This document shows, piece after piece, positions 1,312-41,111 of a DNA stretch of 41,111 nucleotides; position 1 is the stretch's first letter, and each line of letters begins with the position of its first letter. The position numbers were made by a program, and so were the translations under genes. This stretch comes from a virus, in the IMG/VR virus record IMGVR_UViG_3300032242_001204, positions 1 through 41,111 of that record. One strand, 5' to 3'. The notes below the pieces were generated by a model, which was given only the letters and a program-made list of their open reading frames with translations, was not told the origin of the DNA and ran no database searches.

Positions 1312-2274
1312 ATGTCAAAACAAGCAGGTAGATTCTCGGAATCAGCAAATGATTTTCTAAACCCACAGGCGGTTACTGGTTTAACCGCCACGGATGTAGG
1401 CACAGACAGACCATATCTGGCTACTGCTAACACTACATCAGCTGCTTCAGCAGCGGGAACAGGTGGATCTGCATCTATTGCTTGGACACTTCCTTCTACT
1501 TCATCTGCGGCTACATCCTATACAATTACTACTACACCAGCAACATATACTGTGATAACTGGAACAGCAACTACTTCTTATACATTTCAAGGGTTAGCTT
1601 CAGCAACATCTTATACATTTACTGTAGTTGCCACCAATGCAGCAGGAAGCTCTCCTAGCACAACTTCTAGTTCAGTTACAATTACTACAAATCCATCAGC
1701 ACCGACTTCCGTTACTGGAACTTCTCCATCAGTATTAACAGATCAAATAACTTGGTCCGCTCCAACCAGCAATGGAGGCAAAGCAATAACATCATATACA
1801 ATAATTGCTTCTGCTCCAGATGGAAGTACTTATCCAAATGTAACTTCTCCATTTTCACATGCAGAACCAGACGGAAGTACTATAACGTTTTCAGTTTATG
1901 CATTGAATGCCAACTCAGTAACAACAAAATCTGCAGCAGGTACCGCTGCAGTTACTGTTACACCACCATTCTTCCCACCATTCTTTCCACCATTCTTCCC
2001 GTTCTTCCCACCATTCTTTCCACCATTCTTCCCACCTTCTTTCCCATTCTTCCCGCCATACTTCCCATACTTCCCATTCTTCCCACCTTCTTTCCCATTC
2101 TTCCCGCCATACTTCCCATACTTCCCATTCTTCCCACCATTCTTCCCACCATACTTTGCTCCACCATACTTCCCATTCTTCCCACCATTCTTCCCAAGTT
2201 TCTGTGCAGCGGTAGCATGTAGACCCGCATGCACTGGTGGATCGTATTGCACTTGTGGGTCATGCCAAGCTTGA
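1312..2274 (+). CDS. Fn3-domain adhesin with FFPP repeat and Cys-rich C-terminus
   Basis: A 320-residue protein with start set by TAGGAGA ten bases upstream. Residues 1-40 are a short N-terminal segment. Residues 50-215 form two fibronectin type III-like domains (SYTITTTP, SYTFTVVATNAAGSSPST, then ITWSAPTSNGGKAITSYTI). Residues 218-297 are almost only Pro, Phe and Tyr in units such as FFPPFFPP, SFPFFPPYFPYFP and FFPPYFAPPYF. The last 23 residues hold six cysteines (CAAVAC, RPAC, GGSYC, TC, GSC). It is probably a tail-associated adhesin or an extended virion spike. The FFPP block is aromatic and proline-rich enough to form a rigid extended rod or a hydrophobic surface anchor, and the cysteines could cross-link or bind metal. 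A related block begins at the end of the window in another gene. The nearby prolyl-hydroxylase-like genes make the prolines candidate substrates (inference). Confidence 0.8.
   Translation: MSKQAGRFSESANDFLNPQAVTGLTATDVGTDRPYLATANTTSAASAAGTGGSASIAWTLPSTSSAATSYTITTTPATYTVITGTATTSYTFQGLASATSYTFTVVATNAAGSSPSTTSSSVTITTNPSAPTSVTGTSPSVLTDQITWSAPTSNGGKAITSYTIIASAPDGSTYPNVTSPFSHAEPDGSTITFSVYALNANSVTTKSAAGTAAVTVTPPFFPPFFPPFFPFFPPFFPPFFPPSFPFFPPYFPYFPFFPPSFPFFPPYFPYFPFFPPFFPPYFAPPYFPFFPPFFPSFCAAVACRPACTGGSYCTCGSCQA
1963..2202 (+). repeat. FFPP-coding repeat with a perfect 51-bp tandem duplication
   Basis: This run of CCA/CCG and TTC/TTT/TAC codons encodes residues 218-297 of the upstream adhesin. The basic unit is 12 bp (Pro-Pro-Phe-Phe). 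Within it, a 51-bp (17-codon) unit starting CCCACCTTCT occurs twice in tandem, at 2031-2081 and 2082-2132, with no differences that I can see. The duplication is in frame and suggests recent expansion by slippage or unequal recombination, so copy number may vary between relatives. Confidence 0.85.
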
Positions 2275-2840: not shown

Positions 2841-3080
2841 ATGTCAAAATGGAATGATTGGAAAAATAATCTTGGGGACTCACGTCCTTGGCACCTTTTA
2901 AATCCAAATAAAATTGTAGATGACGAAGAAGTTCCAAAAAATAGATTAGAAATTTGCAAAGCCTGTCCAAGATTTGTTTCGCTTACAAAGCAGTGCTTAG
3001 AGTGCGGTTGTTTTATGCCAGCAAAAGTTCACCTTGCAGATGCAGAATGTCCTTTAAAAAAATGGGGCAAATCTGAATAG
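2841..3080 (+). CDS. Small Cys4 zinc-binding protein (DUF6171-like)
   Basis: 79 residues containing CKACPRF, then TKQCLECGCFM, then ADAECPLKKW. The spacing CxxC, CxxCxC and a last C matches a small family of predicted zinc-binding proteins found in many tailed phages, known to me as DUF6171-like (from memory). No catalytic residues are visible. The gene starts 15 bases after the previous stop with a weak ribosome site, and its stop overlaps the GTG start of the next gene by one base, so it is part of the oxygenase-cassette operon. The role is unknown; metal-dependent protein binding is a guess. Confidence 0.65.
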   Translation: MSKWNDWKNNLGDSRPWHLLNPNKIVDDEEVPKNRLEICKACPRFVSLTKQCLECGCFMPAKVHLADAECPLKKWGKSE

Positions 3081-3829
3081 TGTTTTCTAAACCTTATATA
3101 AAATTTTATAAAAATAATTTAAATATAGATTATCCTAATATAAAACAATCTGGAGTTATTAGATCTTGGATGGATAAAACCTATAAGAAAGTAGCTTATC
3201 TTTGCTCCCCAATGGTCAATGCAAATGCTCATGGATGGGTAATTGAACTACCTCAAGATGTAATTATTAAATGGGATGGAAAGTCAGAAGGTTTGGATGG
3301 TGAAAATCTGAATCATGTAAAAGTAATTTCTGGTAAAACATATAATGATTTTGAATTAATTTCAGAATCACCTGGCGTTGGCTCTGTAACATTTCTTCTT
3401 AATGTTTTTGCTAAAACTGATAATAATCATTATATAATAATAACAGGCCAACCAAATTTTATATTTCCAGATGCTACTGCGTTAACAACTTTAATAAGAT
3501 CTGATTTTTATAATTATCAAGAATTGTCTGTTGGTTGGAAGATAAATACAAAAGATAAAGAAATAGTATTCCCCAAAGGAATGCCAATCGCATTTATTTA
3601 TATATATCCAAAAAGACTAATAGAGTCTACAGCAGTTACAATTCAACCAGTATCAGATAAAATAAAAAAAGATGCAGATACGTATATAAAAAAAAGAGAT
3701 AGTCATTTTAAAAAAAATGGTTTATACAATTTTCCACGGTTTTATAAAAATGGCATAGGGCCAAACAATGAAAAATTTTTAGATTCTCCACTTAAAGTAA
3801 GCATAAAGCCACCAACGATTAATTATTAA
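3080..3829 (+). CDS. DUF6065-like protein A
   Basis: 249 residues with a GTG start that overlaps the previous stop (TAGTG). It resembles the gene at 6036: both begin with SxVxRxWMDxT, followed by a Cys-(S/F)-P-(M/L) segment, an Ala-Asn...GW-(V/T)-I strand and a (K/V)WDG motif, and later by an IAFIYIYPKRL-type strand (compare IATFIPISLKRL). I recognise this as the DUF6065 type, a beta-rich family seen in viruses and bacteria next to 2OG oxygenases; its biochemical function is unknown to me. Because each such gene here is followed by an oxygenase gene, it may be a partner, carrier or substrate-recognition subunit. Family call moderately sure; role inferred. Confidence 0.55.
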   Translation: MFSKPYIKFYKNNLNIDYPNIKQSGVIRSWMDKTYKKVAYLCSPMVNANAHGWVIELPQDVIIKWDGKSEGLDGENLNHVKVISGKTYNDFELISESPGVGSVTFLLNVFAKTDNNHYIIITGQPNFIFPDATALTTLIRSDFYNYQELSVGWKINTKDKEIVFPKGMPIAFIYIYPKRLIESTAVTIQPVSDKIKKDADTYIKKRDSHFKKNGLYNFPRFYKNGIGPNNEKFLDSPLKVSIKPPTINY

Positions 3830-3842: not shown

Positions 3843-3867
3843 ATAATTATAATAGATAGGAATGTTA

Positions 3868-4575
3868 ATGAACATTTACGATGAAAATGAAAACACTTGG
3901 TTTACTAAAGATAGATCAGAAACATCTTCAAATAGAGTAGCAAGAACTTTACAAAACAATATTTTAGTAATAAATCCAGGTTTAGGATTAAATATTTATC
4001 GTAATACTTTTTCTTTAGAAGATTCAAAAAGATATATTGATACGCTTGAATCAAATTTATCAACTAATAAAAAATATAAATGGTCAGAGGCTAAAGTAAC
4101 AAATTCAGATATGCCTATTAAAAAAGCAAGAGATTGCGTAGATTTTAAATATAAACAAGAAAACCTTGGCCCAAGAGATGAATTCAATTCTGAATTAATT
4201 GATTTGCATGAAGAAATTTATCAAAAATTAAAACTTTGTATAGATGATTATGCTCATTATTGGGGAATTAATGTTGTATATTATGAAGCTTTTAATTTTG
4301 TAAAGTATGAAGGTGAGGGTACTCATTTTAATATTCATGCTGATCATGGCCCAGCTTATAACTGCACTGTCTCTGCAGTTATTTACATTAATGATGATTA
4401 TGAAGGCGGGGAGATCAAGTTTCCAAGACTAGATAATTTTGTACATACTCCAAAAGTAGGAGACATAGCAATCTTCCCGTCAAATTATATTTATGAGCAT
4501 GCTTCGTTACCTATTGTGTCTGGAACAAAGTATTGTGTTGTCATCATGACCGATATAAATACATTAAGCCATTAA
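3868..4575 (+). CDS. 2OG-Fe(II) oxygenase 1 (prolyl-4-hydroxylase type)
   Basis: 235 residues. I start at ATG 3868, six bases after TAGGA; an in-frame ATG at 3862 lies too close to that site. The family uses 2-oxoglutarate, O2 and Fe(II) to hydroxylate a substrate, often proline. The double-stranded beta-helix core is visible: H157-A-D159 as the first two metal ligands, then YINDDYEGGEIKF, then the distal H211 in YIYEHAS, then K221 in SGTKY as the likely 2-oxoglutarate anchor. All key residues are present. It is closest to oxygenase 2, sharing EAFNF, YNCTVS and FPSNY. It follows a DUF6065-like gene. Substrate unknown; the FFPP proteins are candidates. Confidence 0.85.
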   Translation: MNIYDENENTWFTKDRSETSSNRVARTLQNNILVINPGLGLNIYRNTFSLEDSKRYIDTLESNLSTNKKYKWSEAKVTNSDMPIKKARDCVDFKYKQENLGPRDEFNSELIDLHEEIYQKLKLCIDDYAHYWGINVVYYEAFNFVKYEGEGTHFNIHADHGPAYNCTVSAVIYINDDYEGGEIKFPRLDNFVHTPKVGDIAIFPSNYIYEHASLPIVSGTKYCVVIMTDINTLSH

Positions 4576-4578
4576 CCA

Positions 4579-5358
4579 ATGGAATTAAAAAATAAAATTA
4601 TTAAGTTTAAGTCTTTTAGACCTTGGCTTAAAGAAGACAGCATCTCGACCCCTAGTTCAACTCAGGGAGCAATACCAGATTGGTATAAAGAGGCAGATAG
4701 GTTTGCAAAAAATCCTTATAATGGAGAATATTATAAAGCTCCAAAAACAGTTTGCCCTTTTCCCAAAGAAGGAACTACAGATGATTATGGGATGATACCA
4801 ACGTGGAAAGCTTGTCCAGCTATTTTAGATGCTTTTACAACTGGATATGTTTTAAAAACTCCTTGCGATATAACATTTTTTAAAAACAGTCAAAATAAAA
4901 TTGATGTAAAGATAGAAGATAATCAGTATAAAGATTTTTGTACAGCAAGGCCACCCATGCCACAATTTGAACACCCCAAGGGTTATTATAAAGATCATTT
5001 TGCTTGGCAACCAGATTGGGGATTGGAAGTTCCAGAAGGTTATAGTTGTTTATACATGACACCGATGAACAGATTTGATTTACCATTTTTAAATACAACT
5101 GGTATTGTAGATAATGATAAAGTTCATTTATCTGGAACCTTTCCATTTTTTATAATAGATGACTGGGAAGGCACTATTCCAGCGGGAACTCCTTATATGC
5201 AAATTCTTCCATTTAAGAGAGAAAACTGGCAAAGTGAAATAGAAATACTGTCAACAAATACTATTTATGATAAAATGATGGATAATATGAAAATGTACCG
5301 CAAACCAGATGGCGGGATTTACAGAAAAAAAGTCTGGACTAAAAGAGAGTATAGTTAG
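4579..5358 (+). CDS. DUF6065-like / beta-barrel protein B
   Basis: 259 residues starting three bases after the previous stop, with no clear Shine-Dalgarno, so probably translated by coupling. It begins with FKSFRPWLKED and SSTQGAIPDWYKEA, has a CPFPKEG segment, KACPAILDAF, then TPCDITFFKN, and a beta-rich second half with SCLYMTPMNRFDLPF, FPFFIIDDWEGTIPAGTP and LPFKRENW. The last part (a strand, a PxGTP turn, a strand) parallels the end of the DUF6065-like proteins at 3080 and 6036, so I place it as a divergent relative. I see no catalytic signature. It lies between two oxygenase genes and may serve the same pathway. Confidence 0.5.
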   Translation: MELKNKIIKFKSFRPWLKEDSISTPSSTQGAIPDWYKEADRFAKNPYNGEYYKAPKTVCPFPKEGTTDDYGMIPTWKACPAILDAFTTGYVLKTPCDITFFKNSQNKIDVKIEDNQYKDFCTARPPMPQFEHPKGYYKDHFAWQPDWGLEVPEGYSCLYMTPMNRFDLPFLNTTGIVDNDKVHLSGTFPFFIIDDWEGTIPAGTPYMQILPFKRENWQSEIEILSTNTIYDKMMDNMKMYRKPDGGIYRKKVWTKREYS

Positions 5359-5365
5359 GAATAAA

Positions 5366-6043
5366 ATGCAAACTTGGACTGAAAAAGAAATGCTAGGCAA
5401 TGGTATTGTTTGTTATAGAAACGTTATTAAGCCAGAATTTGATGTTATTAATAAATTAGAAAATATATTGGGCAAAGCAGCACCTTATGGTCAGATATCT
5501 GATGATGGTAAAAGATATCATTGGTATCCAGCATATGTAGGTTATCAACAATTGATGCCAGAATATCGTGACTGCTATGATTTTAAATTTAAGAAAACAG
5601 ATATACAGGCAGATACAACAGAAGATTCATTACGCTTGCAAGATGTATGGCAAGATGTTTACGATGCTCAGTTTGCAGCAGTAGAAGATTATAGAAGTAT
5701 GTTTAATATTATGGAATTAAAATATTGGGAAGCATTTAATTTTATTAAATATGGTCCAGGTCAGCATTTCCAAGAACATCATGATCATGGGTTTTCTTAT
5801 AATTGTACAGTATCTCTTGTTGCATATGTCAACGATGACTACGAAGGCGGAGAATTGTACTTTAGATTGCAAGAATTAAACATAAAACCTAAAGCTGGAG
5901 ATCTATATATATTCCCTTCAAACTATATGTATCCACATAGAGCTATGCCAGTAACATCTGGAACAAAATATTCAATTGTTACTATGTTAGATTATAATAA
6001 AAAATTCCATACACCAGAAATGTATATACCAGACAATGACTAA
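5366..6043 (+). CDS. 2OG-Fe(II) oxygenase 2 (prolyl-4-hydroxylase type)
   Basis: 225 residues from ATG 5366, preceded by TTAGGA and starting eight bases after the previous stop. A GTG at 5309 in the same frame would overlap the upstream gene by 50 bases and is less likely. Core motifs: H138-H-D140 in QEHHDHG, then YVNDDYEGGELYF, then the distal H191 in MYPHRA, then a lysine in SGTKYSIV. All metal and co-substrate residues are kept. Close sequence likeness to oxygenase 1 across the core points to a duplication. Its end overlaps the next gene by eight bases. Substrate unknown. Confidence 0.85.
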   Translation: MQTWTEKEMLGNGIVCYRNVIKPEFDVINKLENILGKAAPYGQISDDGKRYHWYPAYVGYQQLMPEYRDCYDFKFKKTDIQADTTEDSLRLQDVWQDVYDAQFAAVEDYRSMFNIMELKYWEAFNFIKYGPGQHFQEHHDHGFSYNCTVSLVAYVNDDYEGGELYFRLQELNIKPKAGDLYIFPSNYMYPHRAMPVTSGTKYSIVTMLDYNKKFHTPEMYIPDND

Positions 6044-6755
6044 AATTTTAGCTTACAAAACGCCAAACCATCCAGTAGTAATAGAGCAATCAAAAGTTCA
6101 AAGAGATTGGATGGATGAAACTGCTGGAAAGCATGTTTACAAGTGTTTTCCTTTAAGCTTAGCAAACCAGGTGGGATGGACAATATCTTTTACAAAAGAT
6201 ATCGAGTTTGTTTGGGATGGTATAACAGATACAACTCCAGATCATGTAACGATATTGCAAAGTGGAGGATTAACTGATACAAATAGGGCAAATGCAACAA
6301 TAACCTTTCATAGTGGAATACAGTTTAAAACTGATGAAGATATGTCTGTTTTATGTATACCCCCTGCAAATTTGTTTATAGATGGTTTAGTTCCGTATAC
6401 CTCCGTAATATCAACTTCTTTTTTGGACGAACCTTACCCGATTGCTTGGAGAATAACAAAGCCCAATCATAAATTTTTAATAAAAGCTGGAACGCCGATT
6501 GCTACTTTTATTCCTATTTCTTTAAAACGTTTATCGGAAATTGAATTAGATGTTTATGATAAAGTGTTTGAAGAAAATTACCATAAGTTTAGAGAAGAAA
6601 GAGGCGAAGCTTGGGCAGAATTGACTGCCAAGGGCGGATTTACTAATTTCTATAGAGATGCTGTAGATCACAAAGGAAATTCAATAGGAAAACATGAAGT
6701 AAAGTCTTTAACAATGAAAATCAATGATTTTACTACATCTAGTCAGGTGGTATAA
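6036..6755 (+). CDS. DUF6065-like protein C
   Basis: 239 residues, start ATG overlapping the end of oxygenase 2 (ATGACTAA). It is the best match in this window to the gene at 3080: SKVQRDWMDET, YKCFPLSLANQVGWTI, FVWDG, an IPPANLFIDG loop comparable to GQPNFIFPDA, and IATFIPISLKRL. Both end in a Lys/Glu-rich helix followed by FYR-(D/N). The pair shows that a two-gene unit (DUF6065-like plus oxygenase) has been duplicated. Function unknown; tight coupling to oxygenases suggests joint action. Its last bases contain the promoter-like site at 6748. Confidence 0.6.
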   Translation: MTKILAYKTPNHPVVIEQSKVQRDWMDETAGKHVYKCFPLSLANQVGWTISFTKDIEFVWDGITDTTPDHVTILQSGGLTDTNRANATITFHSGIQFKTDEDMSVLCIPPANLFIDGLVPYTSVISTSFLDEPYPIAWRITKPNHKFLIKAGTPIATFIPISLKRLSEIELDVYDKVFEENYHKFREERGEAWAELTAKGGFTNFYRDAVDHKGNSIGKHEVKSLTMKINDFTTSSQVV

Positions 6756-6756
6756 T
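6748..6756 (+). promoter_or_regulatory. Extended -10 promoter TGGTATAAT, possible leaderless start
   Basis: TGG-TATAAT overlaps the end of the DUF6065-like gene. The ATG at 6763 lies only six bases past the hexamer, where RNA synthesis would be expected to begin, so a transcript from here would have almost no leader. An AGGTGG at 6745-6750 offers an alternative ribosome site for longer read-through transcripts. Confidence 0.5.
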
Positions 6757-6762
6757 AGTAGC

Positions 6763-7440
6763 ATGGAAATTACAAATAAAAATATTCATTTTAACGCCCC
6801 AGTATCAATAACTCCTTCGGGATTTTTTGGTGATGATAAGGCAATGATTGTAGAATTAGAAAATTTTATGACAGAAGAAGAAATAGATTTTCTAGATAAT
6901 GCAGCAAGAAATATTAGCATTTGGGACATTACAGAAGATCATGTTAATGAAAATGGCACAGTAATTTATGATTCTAGTTACTGGAAAGATCGAGTAGCAA
7001 GTGCCCCTTCATTAAATAAAAATGATGAAAATATTGTTCCTGTAATTGTAGGCTTGTTTCAAAAACTACAGCCAGTAATAGAAAATTTTTATAATGTTAA
7101 AGCTCAGCCAACAGGACAAACTATTGTTCGCTGGCTTCCAGGGCAGTTGCAAAATCCTCATGCTGATAAAGAATTGCACGATGGCCCAGATGCAGGAAAG
7201 CCAAATGATTTTCCTTGGTATGATCTTGCAAGCTTGTTTTATTTAAATGATGATTATGAAGGTGGAGAACTTTATTTTCCTAACCAAGGAATTAAATTTA
7301 AACCAAAAAGAGGTGCAGCTTACTTTTTCCCAGGAGATAAAAATTTTATACATGGCGTGACAGAAATAAAAAGCGGGATTAGATATACCTGTCCATTTTT
7401 TTGGACTATAACAGAGCATACAGGAGATAGACAGCCATAA
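6763..7440 (+). CDS. 2OG-Fe(II) oxygenase 3 (prolyl-4-hydroxylase type)
   Basis: 225 residues. I use ATG 6763, eight bases after the previous stop; the in-frame start at 6724 would overlap that gene. Core motifs: H133-A-D135 in NPHADKE, then YLNDDYEGGELYF, then H197 in FIHGVTE and R207 in SGIRYTCPFFW. The arginine anchor and the HGV motif are classic for prolyl-4-hydroxylase-like enzymes. The N-terminal 80 residues (MTEEEIDFLDNA) are the helical region usual before the barrel. All key residues are intact. Its stop overlaps the next start (TAATG). Confidence 0.87.
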   Translation: MEITNKNIHFNAPVSITPSGFFGDDKAMIVELENFMTEEEIDFLDNAARNISIWDITEDHVNENGTVIYDSSYWKDRVASAPSLNKNDENIVPVIVGLFQKLQPVIENFYNVKAQPTGQTIVRWLPGQLQNPHADKELHDGPDAGKPNDFPWYDLASLFYLNDDYEGGELYFPNQGIKFKPKRGAAYFFPGDKNFIHGVTEIKSGIRYTCPFFWTITEHTGDRQP

Positions 7441-8138
7441 TGTTGAATATATTAAAAGAACAATTATTAAAAAATAATTTTAATGTAGAGTCGCCAGTAG
7501 ATAATGTTCTTGTTGTAAAGAATTATTTACTTGATTCTGAAATTGATTATTTTAATGATCTTATTAATTCGACTCCAGAAAAAGATTGGCTTATTGAATA
7601 TATGTCAAATTTAAAACCATTTTGTTTGGAAAAGTTTGGAAGAGATGATGTAGAAAATTTAGTTGCAGAAGGTTTATTTGAAATAACTCAAAATTGGGAA
7701 GATAAGAATTTAAATATTTCTAAACATTCAGTAACTACAGATATAACAAAAAGATTGAATGATTATATATATAAAATAGATGAAAGTATAACTCTTAATG
7801 GTTTTGGTAGCATACAAAGAATGCAAGAGGGTGTAGAGTTAAAATGTCATACTGATCAAGACACGGACCCATCAATAAAGTATGCTGCAATTATTTATTT
7901 AAATAATAATTATAATGAAGGAAAACTGTTTTTTAAAAATAAAGATTTAGAATTGAAACCAGAACCTGGGTCATTATTATTATTTCCAGGGGATGAAGAA
8001 TTTCATCATGGAGTTCGTCCAGTAGGAGAGGGCCCAATAAGATACGTTATAGTTGGTTTTATAAAAGTAATAGATTATTACAAATATGATAGACAAGGAA
8101 ACGTAATAAATAATTTAAAAGAAAGTGATAGCAAATGA
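7440..8138 (+). CDS. 2OG-Fe(II) oxygenase 4 (prolyl-4-hydroxylase type)
   Basis: 232 residues, ATG sharing a base with the preceding stop; AGGAGA about 13 bases upstream may help. Core motifs: H137-T-D139 in LKCHTDQD, then YLNNNYNEGKLFF (a divergent form of the YLNDDYEGG strand), then H190 in FHHGVRP and an arginine in PIRYVIVGF. All ligands are present. It is shorter in loops than oxygenase 3 and has more Lys/Asn codons ending in A/T. It overlaps the next gene by ATGA. The substrate is not evident; it is diverged enough from oxygenases 1 and 2 that it may act on a different residue or protein. Confidence 0.85.
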   Translation: MLNILKEQLLKNNFNVESPVDNVLVVKNYLLDSEIDYFNDLINSTPEKDWLIEYMSNLKPFCLEKFGRDDVENLVAEGLFEITQNWEDKNLNISKHSVTTDITKRLNDYIYKIDESITLNGFGSIQRMQEGVELKCHTDQDTDPSIKYAAIIYLNNNYNEGKLFFKNKDLELKPEPGSLLLFPGDEEFHHGVRPVGEGPIRYVIVGFIKVIDYYKYDRQGNVINNLKESDSK

Positions 8139-8890
8139 ATTTAAATGAAAAAAATAGACTAACAAAGGATATTGTTATCTATGAAAATTTTTTAACAAAA
8201 GATCAATGTGATTCTTTAATTAATGTTTTAGAAGAGCAAGCCAGTGCTGAAAAATTATCTTGGACCCCAATATCTTTTTATGAATCCTATTCTTCCGTAC
8301 TTCCACAAGATGGAGATTCAGAATTGGCAAAATTTAATTTGGAGCCATCTATTTTTTCTGATATTAAAAGAGGAATTATTGAAGGTATTGCATCTGTTCA
8401 TGATTTAAAGCCAGAACAGATTGTTCAAATTGGCTACCATACTCAAAAGTGGGAACCAGGAGCGTATGCAAGACTTCATTCTGACAATACAGATGAACAT
8501 GGAAATACTGGTCCATTTGAAAGAAGTAGATATGCTGGCTTCTTATATTTAAATGATGATTTTCAAGGAGGACTCCTTCAATTCCCCTCTCATGATATTA
8601 GCTTGAAGCCAAAAGTAGGAATGCTTGCCGTATTTGCGGGTGGTTTCGAAAACATGCATGAAGTAACTTTAATAGAAAAGGGAACGAGATATACACTTGG
8701 TTCTTTTTGGGATGATAGAGAAGAAGATGCCTATCCTCAAGAAATTAGAGATGTTTGGGCGGAAGAGATGAAAAAGATTCGAGATTTTCAAGCAGAAGAA
8801 AAGAAAGAATGGCAAGATTTATTAAAAGAAGGTTATAAGTTAGATAAAGATGGCAATAGATATAAAATAGAGGAGTTAGACAGTGAATAA
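8135..8890 (+). CDS. 2OG-Fe(II) oxygenase 5 with C-terminal helical extension
   Basis: 251 residues, ATGA overlap with oxygenase 4. Core motifs: H115-S-D117 in RLHSDNTDEHG, then YLNDDFQGGLLQF, then H175 in NMHEVT and an arginine in KGTRYTLGSFW. After the barrel comes an extra Glu/Lys-rich stretch of about 60 residues (EEMKKIRDFQAEEKKEW, DLLKEGYKLDKDGNRY) that the other paralogues lack and that looks helical. It could mediate oligomers or substrate docking. Its end overlaps the GTG start of the next gene by eight bases. Confidence 0.85.
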   Translation: MNLNEKNRLTKDIVIYENFLTKDQCDSLINVLEEQASAEKLSWTPISFYESYSSVLPQDGDSELAKFNLEPSIFSDIKRGIIEGIASVHDLKPEQIVQIGYHTQKWEPGAYARLHSDNTDEHGNTGPFERSRYAGFLYLNDDFQGGLLQFPSHDISLKPKVGMLAVFAGGFENMHEVTLIEKGTRYTLGSFWDDREEDAYPQEIRDVWAEEMKKIRDFQAEEKKEWQDLLKEGYKLDKDGNRYKIEELDSE

Positions 8891-9578
8891 AAATATTTTA
8901 GAAGAAAAGATTTACTATTATGAAGATGTTATTCCAGATTTTGAAAACTTCAATAAAACATTATTTGGTTTAAATGATATTGGGTCTACTGGAGAAATTA
9001 ATCTTTGGTACCCATGGACCGCATCAAATGATAAAAACTTTATTTATGGTGAAACAAAAACTTTTGATATTAACATGATTAACAGCTTGCAAGATCCTTT
9101 AAAAGAAAAAATGTTGTATATTTATAATTCTGTTGTAGATGCTTTTTATAATGTTTCTAAAGATTATGCTGAATCTTTAGGTGATTATGATGAACCTAGA
9201 CTATTCCCAACATTTAATATAAAAAAATACTATAGCGGGATATCAATGGGTTCTCATTTTGATCAATTAGATGGAGATCAGACTTTAAGATATTCTTTAG
9301 TTATGTATTTAAATGATGACTGCGAAGGCGGAGAAATTTCTTTTAGTATTGTGGATTATGATGGAGTAAATCAGAAACCCTCAACCCCAATGGATTACGA
9401 AGAAGCATTAAAAAATAAAACATTTGATGTTGGGATAAAACCAAAAGCAAATAGTGTTATTATTTTTCCATCTTCTGCTCCATATTTTCACACTGCTCAT
9501 ACCGTAAAAACTGGTTTTAAATATATGGTACCAGGACATTGGATTCATAACAATATGGAATTCCATAAAGGTATGTAG
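8883..9578 (+). CDS. 2OG-Fe(II) oxygenase 6 (prolyl-4-hydroxylase type)
   Basis: 231 residues with GTG start inside the end of oxygenase 5. Core motifs: H125-F-D127 in GSHFDQLDGD, then YLNDDCEGGEISF, then a longer insertion (about 30 residues, NQKPSTPMDYEEALKNK) before KPKANSVIIFPSS, then the distal histidine in YFHTAHTV (H203 or H206) and a lysine in GFKYMVPGHW. The key residues are kept although the spacing between halves is unusual. It is the last of six oxygenases and is followed six bases later by a dehydrogenase gene. Confidence 0.83.
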   Translation: MNKNILEEKIYYYEDVIPDFENFNKTLFGLNDIGSTGEINLWYPWTASNDKNFIYGETKTFDINMINSLQDPLKEKMLYIYNSVVDAFYNVSKDYAESLGDYDEPRLFPTFNIKKYYSGISMGSHFDQLDGDQTLRYSLVMYLNDDCEGGEISFSIVDYDGVNQKPSTPMDYEEALKNKTFDVGIKPKANSVIIFPSSAPYFHTAHTVKTGFKYMVPGHWIHNNMEFHKGM

Positions 9579-9584
9579 TATACA

Positions 9585-10253
9585 TTGAAAACAGCTATAG
9601 TAACTGGAGCAAGTAGAGGTGTAGGAAAAGCCACAGTCAAATTGTTAGAGCAAAATAATTATAAGGTTATTGCATTATCTAGAAATTTAGAAGCGATGAA
9701 AGAGTTGCAATCTGATAATGTTGAAATTAATCAAGTAGATATAACAAATGCCAATCAAATAAAAGAGTTCTTTAATAAGTATAAAGATATTTCTTTGGAT
9801 CTTTTAGTTAATAATGCTGGAGGCGGAGCTGGTCCCACTTTTATTATTAATGAAACTATGGAAAATTTTAGAATGGCTTACGATATAAATGTATCTGGTC
9901 CAATGTACTTATCTCAACTATTTGTTCCGTGCATGAAAAAGTCTGACTCCGCAACAATTATTTTTATTACATCATTGTGTGGCAAAATACCTTTTAGAGG
10001 TGGCGGGAATTATTCAAACGCAAAGCGTGGTCAGATGGCTTTGATAGATACAATGCGTATGGAATTTCCAGAATATGGGATTAAGATAAGTGAGATCTGC
10101 CCTGGTTCTATAGATACAGGAATAGAAAAAAAAGATAATGCGATATCTGCTGAAGATATGGCAGAGGCAATAAGATGGGTAGCATCTATGCCAAAAACAG
10201 TTAATATAAATCATATTGAAATAAGTCATATTTATAATGGAAAGTTTATTTAA
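9585..10253 (+). CDS. Short-chain dehydrogenase/reductase (SDR)
   Basis: 222 residues with TTG start and no clear Shine-Dalgarno, so probably coupled to the gene before. Classical SDR signs: TGASRGVGKA (residues 7-16) for NAD(P) binding, LLVNNAGGG, then the catalytic serine in ITSLCG and the YSNAK (YxxxK) pair. PGSIDTG after it is the usual PG motif. The short C-terminus fits a minimal SDR. It would reduce or oxidise a carbonyl/alcohol using NAD(P)H. Its position at the end of the oxygenase cassette suggests that it acts on a hydroxylated product or on a sugar, but nothing in the sequence fixes the substrate. Confidence 0.85.
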   Translation: MKTAIVTGASRGVGKATVKLLEQNNYKVIALSRNLEAMKELQSDNVEINQVDITNANQIKEFFNKYKDISLDLLVNNAGGGAGPTFIINETMENFRMAYDINVSGPMYLSQLFVPCMKKSDSATIIFITSLCGKIPFRGGGNYSNAKRGQMALIDTMRMEFPEYGIKISEICPGSIDTGIEKKDNAISAEDMAEAIRWVASMPKTVNINHIEISHIYNGKFI

Positions 10254-37194: not shown

Positions 37195-40100
37195 ATGGGA
37201 CTATTTGTAAATAAAAGCTCTTGGTCATCTTCCTCATCCACAAAACTTTGGGCAAAATCTTCAAGCGGTTGGAAGCAAGCGGTAAAGGGTTTTGTTAATA
37301 CTGTTGTTGGCTGGGTACAATTCTACCCAACTGCGGGACCTTACTTTGGATATTCTTTAGAAATAACAGCGTCACCTACAAAATATCCTTCATCTGGAAC
37401 AAATTACCCAAAACTAACTGGAAAAACTTATCATTGGCAATCGGCTGGTGGCTTAGTACTAACTTATTCTTTTAAAAAATCTGCATCGGCAAATGGACCA
37501 TTTACGCTTGTAACTGGAAGCGGTGCCAGTGGAACTATATCTAATCCATCTTCAGGTTCATATAATACTGTCCAATATACAGTAGTGCCAGGAGATTTAA
37601 CTTCTGCAAACCCTACATATTTTGTTTTTGAAGTGGCGGGAAATGATAACAGTGGAAACACTACAGAATCAAGCTATACAAATTCAAATACCTCAGTAAA
37701 TGTAGCATCAGTTTATGGTCCAGATGTAACTATGGGTGCAGGTTATTGGCAATCTGGCCCATATTTTTCAAATTCTAGCACGGTTTATTACGTAGGAACA
37801 GCAACCAATGCTTCATATACAAGAACATATATAACAAGAAGTGATGGAACTGTAATATTAAATGACACTACATTTAGTTCTAAGGTTTTAAATAACGTAG
37901 GACAAAAGCCTACAGACAATAAAGGTTCTGTATATCAAATACTTTTTGATAGTACAGATGTAGGAAAAACTTATAGTGCTTATTCTATAGCTTATGATGC
38001 AAGTAATAACGGTACAACTGGAAATACAGCTACTATGTCAACTGCTGTTGTAGCCCCGTTTGATAGGGCGACACAACCAACTACAACATTATCTGGAACA
38101 TATTTAGCTTTTGGATATCAGCTGCTTGGAAATACTGGAACATTTAATAGCACTCCGCAGGGAGTAAGATATGCTTGGCAATTTTCGTCAACAAATAAAG
38201 CGGGAAGTTGGCAGACAATGTACGATAGTTCAGGCCAACCAATTAGCGGAAATCTAGGTACTGGAGATTCAACACAAGGACAAAATCATTACTTAACAAT
38301 ACCTTCTTATTTTTATGATTCTACTGGAACTAAACTTAGCGGTACAACAAATGGTTATATTAGATTTTATTCAACAGGATATCTTTCTGGAATATTTTCT
38401 AGCGAACCAACAAATACTGGATTGGGACCTATCTTTGATGCCACTCCAACCCAAGCTTCTGCAGCTGTAATAAATCCTCCCACCACTATAACAAAGTCCA
38501 CAACTGCAAATATCGGAAATTGGAATTGGACTCCAGATTTATTTGAATATCATCTATATTGGTTAGACCCAAACACCTACACTCCGTACCCATTAACTAC
38601 AAGTCTTCAACCAGTATCAATTACAAATAGAAGTATAACAAGCGGGACAAGAGCAACTTTAACAACATCACGTCCTGGCGGATTTAGAACAAATAAACCA
38701 AATGGAACACAAGAAAACTTAGTGATTACTGGAGTAGATACTTTATTTAATGGCTCTTGGCCTATAACTGGTGTAATATCAAATTATGTAACAATAGATT
38801 TATCTGGAACTCCTGCATACAGCTATACAGATGTTTATACAGCAAATTCTAGTTATATAACATATCAATCAAATTTGTATAAATGTGTATTAAATTTGTC
38901 CAAACCCACAACTTTTTCTTATTCTGCAAGTTATTCTTATGGAGACAATGTTACTAGTACATATAGATATTATTGCACTACTGCTTATAACGGAAATGGT
39001 TGGAGCTCTGTAACAACATATAGTGCTGGAAGTACAGTAATTTATGCTAATCATTTATATTCTTCAGTTGGAAATAATAACCTTAATCATTCCCCGACAG
39101 GAGTAAATGGTTATATTTATTGGACAGATTTAGGAGATGTTACACCAAGTGCGGGTATATATTGGAGACTTGTTAATCCTTTGGACACTTTTTTCTTTAG
39201 TTCTGTAACTAATTTAAATACATCAAGTAATGGATCCGCATATGGAACTTGTTATAATGAAGGTGTTTATTTACCTGCATCCTACAATAACTTTACTCAC
39301 CCATTTACAATTCCAAATTTTGATTATATTAGAGGCCAAGATTTAACAGGACTAACTTTGCAACTTAATGTTACTGCAATAAATACAACGACGGGAACTG
39401 GATATGCAGCAGTCTCAAAACAAATATATGGATTAAGCTCATTAACTTTAGGTTCTGTAACAAATGGAGATGCTGTAGCATCTATTCCATTTACGTTAAC
39501 AAATGGCGGGTACGTAACTGTTTCAATATCACCATCTAAAGATGTAGTCTATCCAACTTTAATATATGCAGATCCTGTAAATAAAACTCCTTATAGCGGT
39601 ACTATAAATATATCAGGGCTTACAAATGGAACAGTTTATACTTTGACTGTTACACCATATAATCCAGATGGATATGTTGGAAGTTCTATAAATGCAACAT
39701 TAAATCCAGCCCCTAAACCATCTGCATTTACTTACTATGCCTACGATGCCTCAATTTATCCAACTACCCCATCCACACCTACGCTTACAAAAGGAACTGG
39801 TGTTTATGCAAATGATGTGTTTGTTGATTGGACATCTTCAAAGCCAGCAAATACAGATTATTATGTAGAATATTTTTATGGAACGGCTTACAACAATGGT
39901 TCCTATACTATTTCAAATCCACAAAGCAGTAGTTATGGTGGGGTTATAAATAGCTTTAAATTAGATGGATCTGTAGATCTTGGTGGTGGAAATACATACG
40001 AAGACTATTGGCCTATGTCTGGAAGTGGAATTTTTTATGAATATATAGTTGCATATGGCAATAATAAAACGGCAGGAGTTACTTGGACCGCATCAACTAA

Positions 40101-41111
40101 TGCAAATAGTTATGTGGTTAATTATACAATTTCTGGAGCATCTGCTGGAAATGGAACTTATACAAGTGCAGCTTTAAATTCTTATACATCATCTTATGGC
40201 ATAGATCTAAGTACAATTGGCGGAACTGTTACTTTTAATAGTGTTACTGCATATGCCTCAGCAGATGGTACTGGAACAAATTTAACTCCAGCAACACTTC
40301 AAAATGGACAAAGTGCTTCTACATCCCCATCAATTAAAACTTCTACTGGATCAACTGGATATATAAACTTTACATATAGCACTCCCGCACCGTCAGACCC
40401 AACATTTATATTTTCTAGTGGAAGTGCATCTGCACAAGGTTATATATATGTAACTTCCACTGGTGCTACTTCGATAAGCTATACCATATTTTATAGTTCA
40501 AATGGTACTGGTATTAGTGGTCGTGGAAACTTTAATACCTATACATCTTATGATTCTGGTACATTTAGTAGTTCATCTGGAATATACTATCTTCCAAAAA
40601 ACGGTTATTATTACATGTCAGCAACATCTTCAAACGCTTCAGGAAACAATCCTGGATCAACAAGATATTCAAACGGAACTGGACAAACTGGAACAGTAGC
40701 TAACTGGGGATACGCTGGTACTCCAGATCAACCAGCATCTCCGTTGTCAGTTACAGCAGCATCTAGTTCTGAAATAGATATATCTTGGGCTGCACCAGTA
40801 GACACCCCGAGTGCAACATTGCATAAAAACAATGTAGAAACATATGAAATTTGGTGGCAATCAAGCGCAACACCAGCACCAGCTTCAACGGTAACTGCAG
40901 ATTATCCTGGAATCACAACAACATCCTATCCCAATACTGGACTTTCCGCAAACACTACGAGATATTACTATGTTAGATCTAGAAATAGTCTTAACACTCA
41001 GACTGGACAATCTTTAATAAGTGCTTGGGTATACGCAGGCGGTGCCACAACTTCCGCAGTAACACCACCGTTCTTCCCACCGTTCTTCCCACCGTTCTTC
41101 CCACCGTTCTT
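37195..41111 (+). CDS. Very large modular adhesin ending in a second FFPP repeat (3'-truncated)
   Basis: Open from ATG 37195 (AAGGA upstream) to the last base, at least 1305 residues, with no stop that I can find. The N-terminus MGLFVNKSSW, KLWAKSSSGWKQAVKGFV and VVGWVQFYP is a common tail-tip attachment motif. Many Ig/Fn3-like domains follow. Near residues 600-646, WSSVTTYSAGSTVIYANHLY, followed by HSP and YWTDLG, is like a chitin/cellulose-binding CBM5/12 domain. The last complete domain (ASPLSVTAASSSEIDISWAAP, YEIWWQSSA, TRYYYVRSRNS) is Fn3. After TSAVT the protein enters PPFFPPFF repeats at 41065 and is cut by the window edge. It is probably the main carbohydrate-binding tail protein. Confidence 0.8.
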   Translation, partial: MGLFVNKSSWSSSSSTKLWAKSSSGWKQAVKGFVNTVVGWVQFYPTAGPYFGYSLEITASPTKYPSSGTNYPKLTGKTYHWQSAGGLVLTYSFKKSASANGPFTLVTGSGASGTISNPSSGSYNTVQYTVVPGDLTSANPTYFVFEVAGNDNSGNTTESSYTNSNTSVNVASVYGPDVTMGAGYWQSGPYFSNSSTVYYVGTATNASYTRTYITRSDGTVILNDTTFSSKVLNNVGQKPTDNKGSVYQILFDSTDVGKTYSAYSIAYDASNNGTTGNTATMSTAVVAPFDRATQPTTTLSGTYLAFGYQLLGNTGTFNSTPQGVRYAWQFSSTNKAGSWQTMYDSSGQPISGNLGTGDSTQGQNHYLTIPSYFYDSTGTKLSGTTNGYIRFYSTGYLSGIFSSEPTNTGLGPIFDATPTQASAAVINPPTTITKSTTANIGNWNWTPDLFEYHLYWLDPNTYTPYPLTTSLQPVSITNRSITSGTRATLTTSRPGGFRTNKPNGTQENLVITGVDTLFNGSWPITGVISNYVTIDLSGTPAYSYTDVYTANSSYITYQSNLYKCVLNLSKPTTFSYSASYSYGDNVTSTYRYYCTTAYNGNGWSSVTTYSAGSTVIYANHLYSSVGNNNLNHSPTGVNGYIYWTDLGDVTPSAGIYWRLVNPLDTFFFSSVTNLNTSSNGSAYGTCYNEGVYLPASYNNFTHPFTIPNFDYIRGQDLTGLTLQLNVTAINTTTGTGYAAVSKQIYGLSSLTLGSVTNGDAVASIPFTLTNGGYVTVSISPSKDVVYPTLIYADPVNKTPYSGTINISGLTNGTVYTLTVTPYNPDGYVGSSINATLNPAPKPSAFTYYAYDASIYPTTPSTPTLTKGTGVYANDVFVDWTSSKPANTDYYVEYFYGTAYNNGSYTISNPQSSSYGGVINSFKLDGSVDLGGGNTYEDYWPMSGSGIFYEYIVAYGNNKTAGVTWTASTNANSYVVNYTISGASAGNGTYTSAALNSYTSSYGIDLSTIGGTVTFNSVTAYASADGTGTNLTPATLQNGQSASTSPSIKTSTGSTGYINFTYSTPAPSDPTFIFSSGSASAQGYIYVTSTGATSISYTIFYSSNGTGISGRGNFNTYTSYDSGTFSSSSGIYYLPKNGYYYMSATSSNASGNNPGSTRYSNGTGQTGTVANWGYAGTPDQPASPLSVTAASSSEIDISWAAPVDTPSATLHKNNVETYEIWWQSSATPAPASTVTADYPGITTTSYPNTGLSANTTRYYYVRSRNSLNTQTGQSLISAWVYAGGATTSAVTPPFFPPFFPPFFPPF
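41065..41111 (+). repeat. Start of a second FFPP-coding repeat
   Basis: Four near-identical 12-bp units of CCACCGTTCTTC, encoding Pro-Pro-Phe-Phe, run to the window edge. The region just before it (GCAGTAACACCACC) resembles the lead-in to the repeat at 1963 (CCG here, CCA there). The true length cannot be seen. Confidence 0.85.

Follow-up and report, generated by a model that had tools for sequence, protein, structure and literature searches.

Genomic Context and Domain Organisation of the Proposed Fibre Protein

The stretch analysed here, referred to below as the window, is the whole 41,111-nt sequence of an uncultured IMG/VR contig (IMGVR_UViG_3300032242_001204). A 320-codon open reading frame preceded by an AGGAGA ribosome site, designated P0001, occupies positions 1312–2274; this gene, its upstream neighbour, the oxygenase cassette, and the second rod-bearing gene described below all lie on the (+) strand. 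The gene upstream of it (1–1293), whose 5' end is truncated at the contig edge, is a tail or virion gene related to the virion structural proteins of PHROG 6002 (E-value 1.6e-15), and portal, capsid, tape measure, and minor tail genes are found in the rest of the window. The major capsid protein (MCP) is closest to those of Streptomyces phages, with 55% identity, which makes an actinobacterial host likely; judged from sequence, the source of P0001 is likely an uncultured tailed phage infecting aquatic actinobacteria.

The head of P0001 (1312–1962, residues 1–217) comprises two Fn3 domains. It matched the Pfam fn3 family (PF00041) with an E-value of 1.6e-12 and a score of 47.9 bits against a cut-off of 25, was modelled by AF2 as beta domains with pLDDT values mostly in the range of 81–95, and is distantly similar to the central tail fibre J proteins of PHROG 31 (E-value 4.8e-6). 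Both homology and position within the tail gene block thus place P0001 among tail fibres and minor tail proteins, in line with the stiff fibre that had been suggested from the sequence at the outset. Two further features separate this gene from the oxygenase genes described below. A perfect 15-bp inverted repeat with a 7-nt loop (2283–2319), recognised by sequence inspection and absent from the terminators listed by a scan of the window, is a possible transcript boundary, and a small cysteine-rich protein is encoded at 2841–3080, with a weak match to DUF6171 (5.4e-5) that lies below the cut-off.

The Phe-Pro Rod

The Fn3 head is followed by a rod of 80 residues (1963–2202, residues 218–297) composed of 35 proline, 35 phenylalanine, six tyrosine, three serine residues, and one alanine, and then by a tail with six cysteines; the rod length and the cysteine count agree with the original prediction. 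The repeats, on the other hand, are not the perfect ones reported there, but a mixture of four-residue PPxF and three-residue PxF units, where x is F, Y, or S, with a TRF match of 75–82%. About 44% of the rod is phenylalanine, and its charge is zero. AF2 yielded a structure for the Fn3 domains of P0001 only and left the rod unstructured (pLDDT about 50); if extended as a polyproline II helix, it would be about 25 nm long. The absence of a recognisable domain, also noted earlier, was confirmed, since the last 103 residues gave no matches in Pfam, NCBIfam, or PDB. Within the set of papers searched, none had the repeat PPFFPPFF, and there was no precedent for a comparable phage rod, Hint-tipped fibres, or hydroxylated tail fibres.

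That this segment is translated, a point on which the original prediction depended, is indicated by the reading frame with its ribosome site and by a bias in the phenylalanine codons. The existence of a second rod in the window and of at least 182 distinct rods in other viral contigs speaks against a chance origin. The ratio of TTC to TTT is 31 to 3 in the P0001 rod but 73 to 369 elsewhere in the window, and the 182 distinct rods together contain 4790 TTC and 623 TTT codons. We read this bias as avoidance of slippage-prone TTT-TTT runs; homogenisation of the repeats could also contribute to the bias. On the codon and family evidence, an untranslated or chance repeat was rejected. Among 170 rod proteins, PPP was present in only nine rods despite the ubiquity of PP; this scarcity perhaps limits ribosome stalling.

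When viral contigs were scanned for a run of three PPFF units, there were at least 120 matches. An identical scan of 85,000 genomes of bacteria and archaea gave nine stretches; three of these belong to real rod proteins, located on phage-looking MAG contigs that are probably phage (loci L129, L131, and L135), and the rest are chance frames, so that a host origin of the rod protein was rejected. A tblastn search of 50,697 cultured phage records with three queries (P0001, a PASTA-rod protein, and an Fn3-rod protein) gave no matches. Of 23 loci related to P0001, 22 proved to be true relatives, and all 22 carry a rod, while their tips are unrelated. A large Fn3-Fn3 class, a PASTA class, and a few others make up the heads of the rod proteins.

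Being uncharged and so rich in phenylalanine, the rod could be regarded as a hydrophobic anchor inserting into the host membrane or a lipid-rich surface layer, with the cysteine tip acting as a plug; insertion into a hydrophobic surface layer was one of the options in the original prediction. We consider this unlikely, since a membrane helix could not accommodate prolines spaced only three or four residues apart, and since in the family the rod is often placed like a spacer, between Fn3 domains or before large Hint and S74 domains.

A second tail-like protein of the window (37195–41111) also bears a rod, which begins at position 41065 at the C-terminal end of the reading frame and is interrupted by the end of the contig (41065–41111). 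Its tip was sought in two near relatives (G024 and G051), but the protein was unmatched in the stretches compared. Contig ends fall inside rods in a number of other loci as well (L011, L041, L055, L081, and L104), which suggests that the repeats break assemblies and that rods are probably under-counted.

Exchangeable Tips

The C-terminal tip of P0001, CAAVACRPACTGGSYCTCGSCQA (2203–2271, with the stop codon at 2272–2274), consists of 23 residues with six cysteines in the arrangement C-x4-C-x3-C-x5-C-x-C-x2-C; no cysteines occur elsewhere in the protein. Tips differ widely within the family. In a set of 170 distinct rod proteins, the tip contains at least four cysteines in 48 and is Hint-like in 20; another 37 proteins end at the rod, and the remainder are of other kinds, among them an S74 chaperone. 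One and the same head class carries very different tips behind the rod. In record G051, with an MCP identity of 95% and a fibre head identity of 66% to the window, the rod is built of different, PPGFFA-like units, and the tip is different and free of cysteine; therefore, the tip changes within the capsid lineage of the window itself.

Tips of fewer than 100 residues that contain two or more cysteines had an even number of them (2, 4, 6, 8, 10, or 12) in 57 of 57 cases, corresponding to 37 of 37 sequence clusters (binomial p 7e-12), and odd counts of 3, 5, 7, 9, or 11 were never seen, although the tips are of quite different sequence. This pattern bears on the earlier proposal of a metal site or a trimer lock formed by the six cysteines. 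Metal-binding tips occur in other tail spikes, and the cysteine spacing in the window tip would permit a metal site. However, metal sites or interchain locks would allow odd counts, whereas the consistently even numbers are explained by disulfides paired within one chain; the metal or trimer proposal is thus not favoured, and we regard it as very improbable. We infer from the sequence pattern that the window tip is a disulfide knot.

Tips of the Hint kind differ from that of P0001. The model of one of them (locus L139; pLDDT 79.5) had as its best Foldseek matches the bacterial intein-like structure 2LWY (E-value 1.5e-8), inteins, and Hedgehog (1AT0). An N-terminal cysteine and a C-terminal HN motif were found in L139 and also in L152 and L153, while several other Hint-like tips lack the catalytic cysteine or the HN. 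The three loci with an N-terminal cysteine and a C-terminal HNK are located at L139 3500–4795, L152 9989–11254, and L153 9989–11269. Such a tip could cleave itself off, leaving a reactive rod end. The window tip, with its 23 residues and six cysteines, does not belong to the Hint fold.

The 2OG-Fe(II) Oxygenase Cassette

Downstream of the fibre gene lie six PF13640 oxygenases, three DUF6065-type proteins, and one dehydrogenase. The first two oxygenases carry the HxD...H...K signature: the one at 3862–4575 matched PF13640 with an E-value of 3.9e-10, and the one at 5309–6043 with 1.1e-15. They are followed by three oxygenases of the R type, at 6724–7440 (4.8e-8, with conserved catalytic residues), 7440–8138 (9.7e-13), and 8135–8890 (1e-7), and by one of the K type at 8883–9578 (7.5e-9). 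A short-chain dehydrogenase (9585–10253; adh_short, 4e-41) ends the cassette. Three DUF6065/PHROG 7084 relatives are interleaved among the oxygenases, at 3080–3829 (Pfam DUF6065, 2.1e-26), 4579–5358 (PHROG 7084, 3e-34), and 6036–6755 (DUF6065, 4.6e-35); these proteins may act together with the oxygenases in one modification.

All six oxygenases scored above the PF13640 cut-off, and the HxD...H...K/R residues expected of P4H-type 2OG-Fe(II) enzymes are near-invariant in their families, which comprise 58–129 sequences each. The HxD motif is present in 93 of 93 sequences of the 3862–4575 family, where the H and K are 99% conserved, and in 129 of 129 sequences of the 5309–6043 family, where both are fully conserved. 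In three of the six window enzymes, the lysine at the 2OG-binding position is replaced by arginine. Two oxygenases, 3862–4575 and 5309–6043, were searched against PDB, and in both cases the best match was a bacterial prolyl 4-hydroxylase, that of Bacillus anthracis (3ITQ; 1.9e-5 and 6e-5, respectively), followed by collagen lysyl hydroxylases (LH3, 5e-4, for 5309–6043). A prolyl 4-hydroxylase as the nearest solved relative does not fix the substrate of the cassette.

Some of the genes and PHROG families matching the 2OG oxygenase are annotated as ferrochelatase or DNA endonuclease V, including gp210 of NC_026927.1, similar cyanophage genes, and PHROG 3531, 2297, and 274; this looks like a spreading misannotation.

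Linkage between the Rod and the Cassette

PF13640 was detected in 47 of 50 records with rods, and at least five copies were present in 38 of them, while among 38 random viral records the family was found in only two, with at most two copies and no record reaching five. The same trend is visible within the capsid family of the window, represented by 34 records: three of the four rod carriers have at least five copies versus none of the 30 phages without rods (hypergeometric p about 0.0007), the latter having at most two. The contig of the fourth rod carrier (G053) starts 5.4 kb before the capsid gene, so that the region matching the cassette of the window is largely off the contig. When loci were selected by the 5309–6043 oxygenase alone, a rod gene was found upstream in 43 of 43 of those that extend 3 kb or more in that direction, at a median distance of 1.65 kb. 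Conversely, for rod genes selected by rod or head and having at least 5 kb downstream, an oxygenase was present in 67 of 69 loci and within 3 kb in 58 of 69; these locus counts are inflated by common descent.

The MCPs of rod carriers range from 99% identity to that of the window down to no detectable similarity. One record (G006) shares only 56% identity with the window in the portal protein and 60% in the MCP, but six of nine cassette genes are 73–84% identical, while in another (G022) the MCP is 97% identical and the cassette only 33–74%. These opposite divergences show that the cassette and the capsid genes are exchanged separately. Rods can also exist without the cassette, since three rod records (G009, G032, and G038) have one PF13640 oxygenase or none.

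These data allow two readings of the cassette. The one that we prefer is that the prolines of the shaft are its substrate. Alternatively, with the fibre, rod, and tip as described above, the cassette could act elsewhere, on glycans, small molecules, host proteins, or further proteins of the virion; it would then be linked to the rod only as part of a shared, exchanged tail-end block. The set of six oxygenases, three DUF6065-type proteins, and a dehydrogenase seems too much for a proline hydroxylation kit, the PF13640 family also covers non-prolyl substrates, and the cassette is missing from a few records with rods. Moreover, cyanophage S-MbCM7 has two 2OG oxygenases after its tail fibre genes, and no Pro-rich rods were found nearby when this and other cyanophage loci with related oxygenases were checked. 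The invariable association of the 5309–6043 oxygenase with rods and the low copy numbers in phages of the same capsid family that have no rods argue against a substrate elsewhere, which we regard as possible but less probable.

Proposed Function and Relation to Known Systems

Taken together, we propose that P0001 is a modular tail fibre with a rigid Phe-Pro shaft and a swappable tip, and that the neighbouring cassette hydroxylates the prolines of this shaft; we assign this reading as a whole a probability of about 0.5. The two Fn3 domains would anchor the protein to the tail of the virion, and the extended, rigid rod would hold the small, disulfide-knotted tip away from the particle. Phages exchange these tips at or close to the rod, which would suit a fast-evolving end that contacts the receptor. 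The architecture, the modularity, the even cysteine counts, the linkage to the cassette, and the conserved catalytic residues are direct results of the analysis, whereas the place in the virion, the disulfides, the receptor role, and the hydroxylation are deduced from them. The rod prolines are the likely substrate of the neighbouring 2OG-Fe(II) prolyl-hydroxylase-like enzymes, as suggested by the linkage, the enzyme class, and the chemistry of the shaft: hydroxyproline would both stiffen the rod and solubilise an otherwise very insoluble Phe-Pro polymer. Further substrates are likely too, since six oxygenases exceed the need of one rod and three of them carry arginine.

Tail fibres themselves are well known; the novelty of this one lies in its shaft, unrecorded so far, and in the putative modifying cassette to which it is linked. 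P0001 shares an Fn3 head, a position among tail genes, and a variable C-terminal end with the Fn3/Ig-like phage tail fibres and minor tail proteins (PHROG 31, Pfam fn3); the Phe-Pro rod and the exchangeable cysteine or Hint tips, however, were absent from all families searched. The collagen-like fibres of prophages (PMC3368898) likewise contain a proline-rich, repetitive, fibrous shaft, but they are built of Gly-X-Y triplets, whereas the rod is devoid of glycine and consists of phenylalanine-rich units of three and four residues, and is not collagen-like. Bacteria and viruses are said to lack the prolyl hydroxylases required by collagen-like domains (PMC3368898); the Phe-Pro shaft, by contrast, adjoins a hydroxylase-like cassette. 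The Hint tips of the relatives have the same fold as the BIL/Hint domains, being placed there at the end of a tail fibre, while the tip in the window is of the cysteine kind.

Viral prolyl 4-hydroxylase genes have been reported as auxiliary metabolic genes in aquatic viromes, where their use by the virus "remains cryptic" (PMC9301287). According to the work of Eriksson (1999) as cited there, Chlorella virus PBCV-1 encodes a prolyl 4-hydroxylase with viral-protein peptides as substrates. On this account, PBCV-1, a eukaryotic virus, differs from the phage in the window, in which several oxygenase genes lie beside one repeat gene and their activity is predicted.

A bolder interpretation, put forward here only tentatively, is that the rod proteins form a new class of fibrous proteins, in which a rod hydroxylated by a dedicated, co-inherited cassette makes up one exchangeable unit. 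Such a rod would be a general shaft onto which different tips are fitted, among them self-cleaving Hint tips, by which the end of the fibre could become covalently joined to its target. The shaft-and-tip design, unrecorded so far, is common to many uncultured aquatic phages, and the even-cysteine mini-knots resemble naturally diversified binding tips. The linkage of the rod with the cassette offers the viral prolyl-hydroxylase-like enzymes a concrete candidate substrate.
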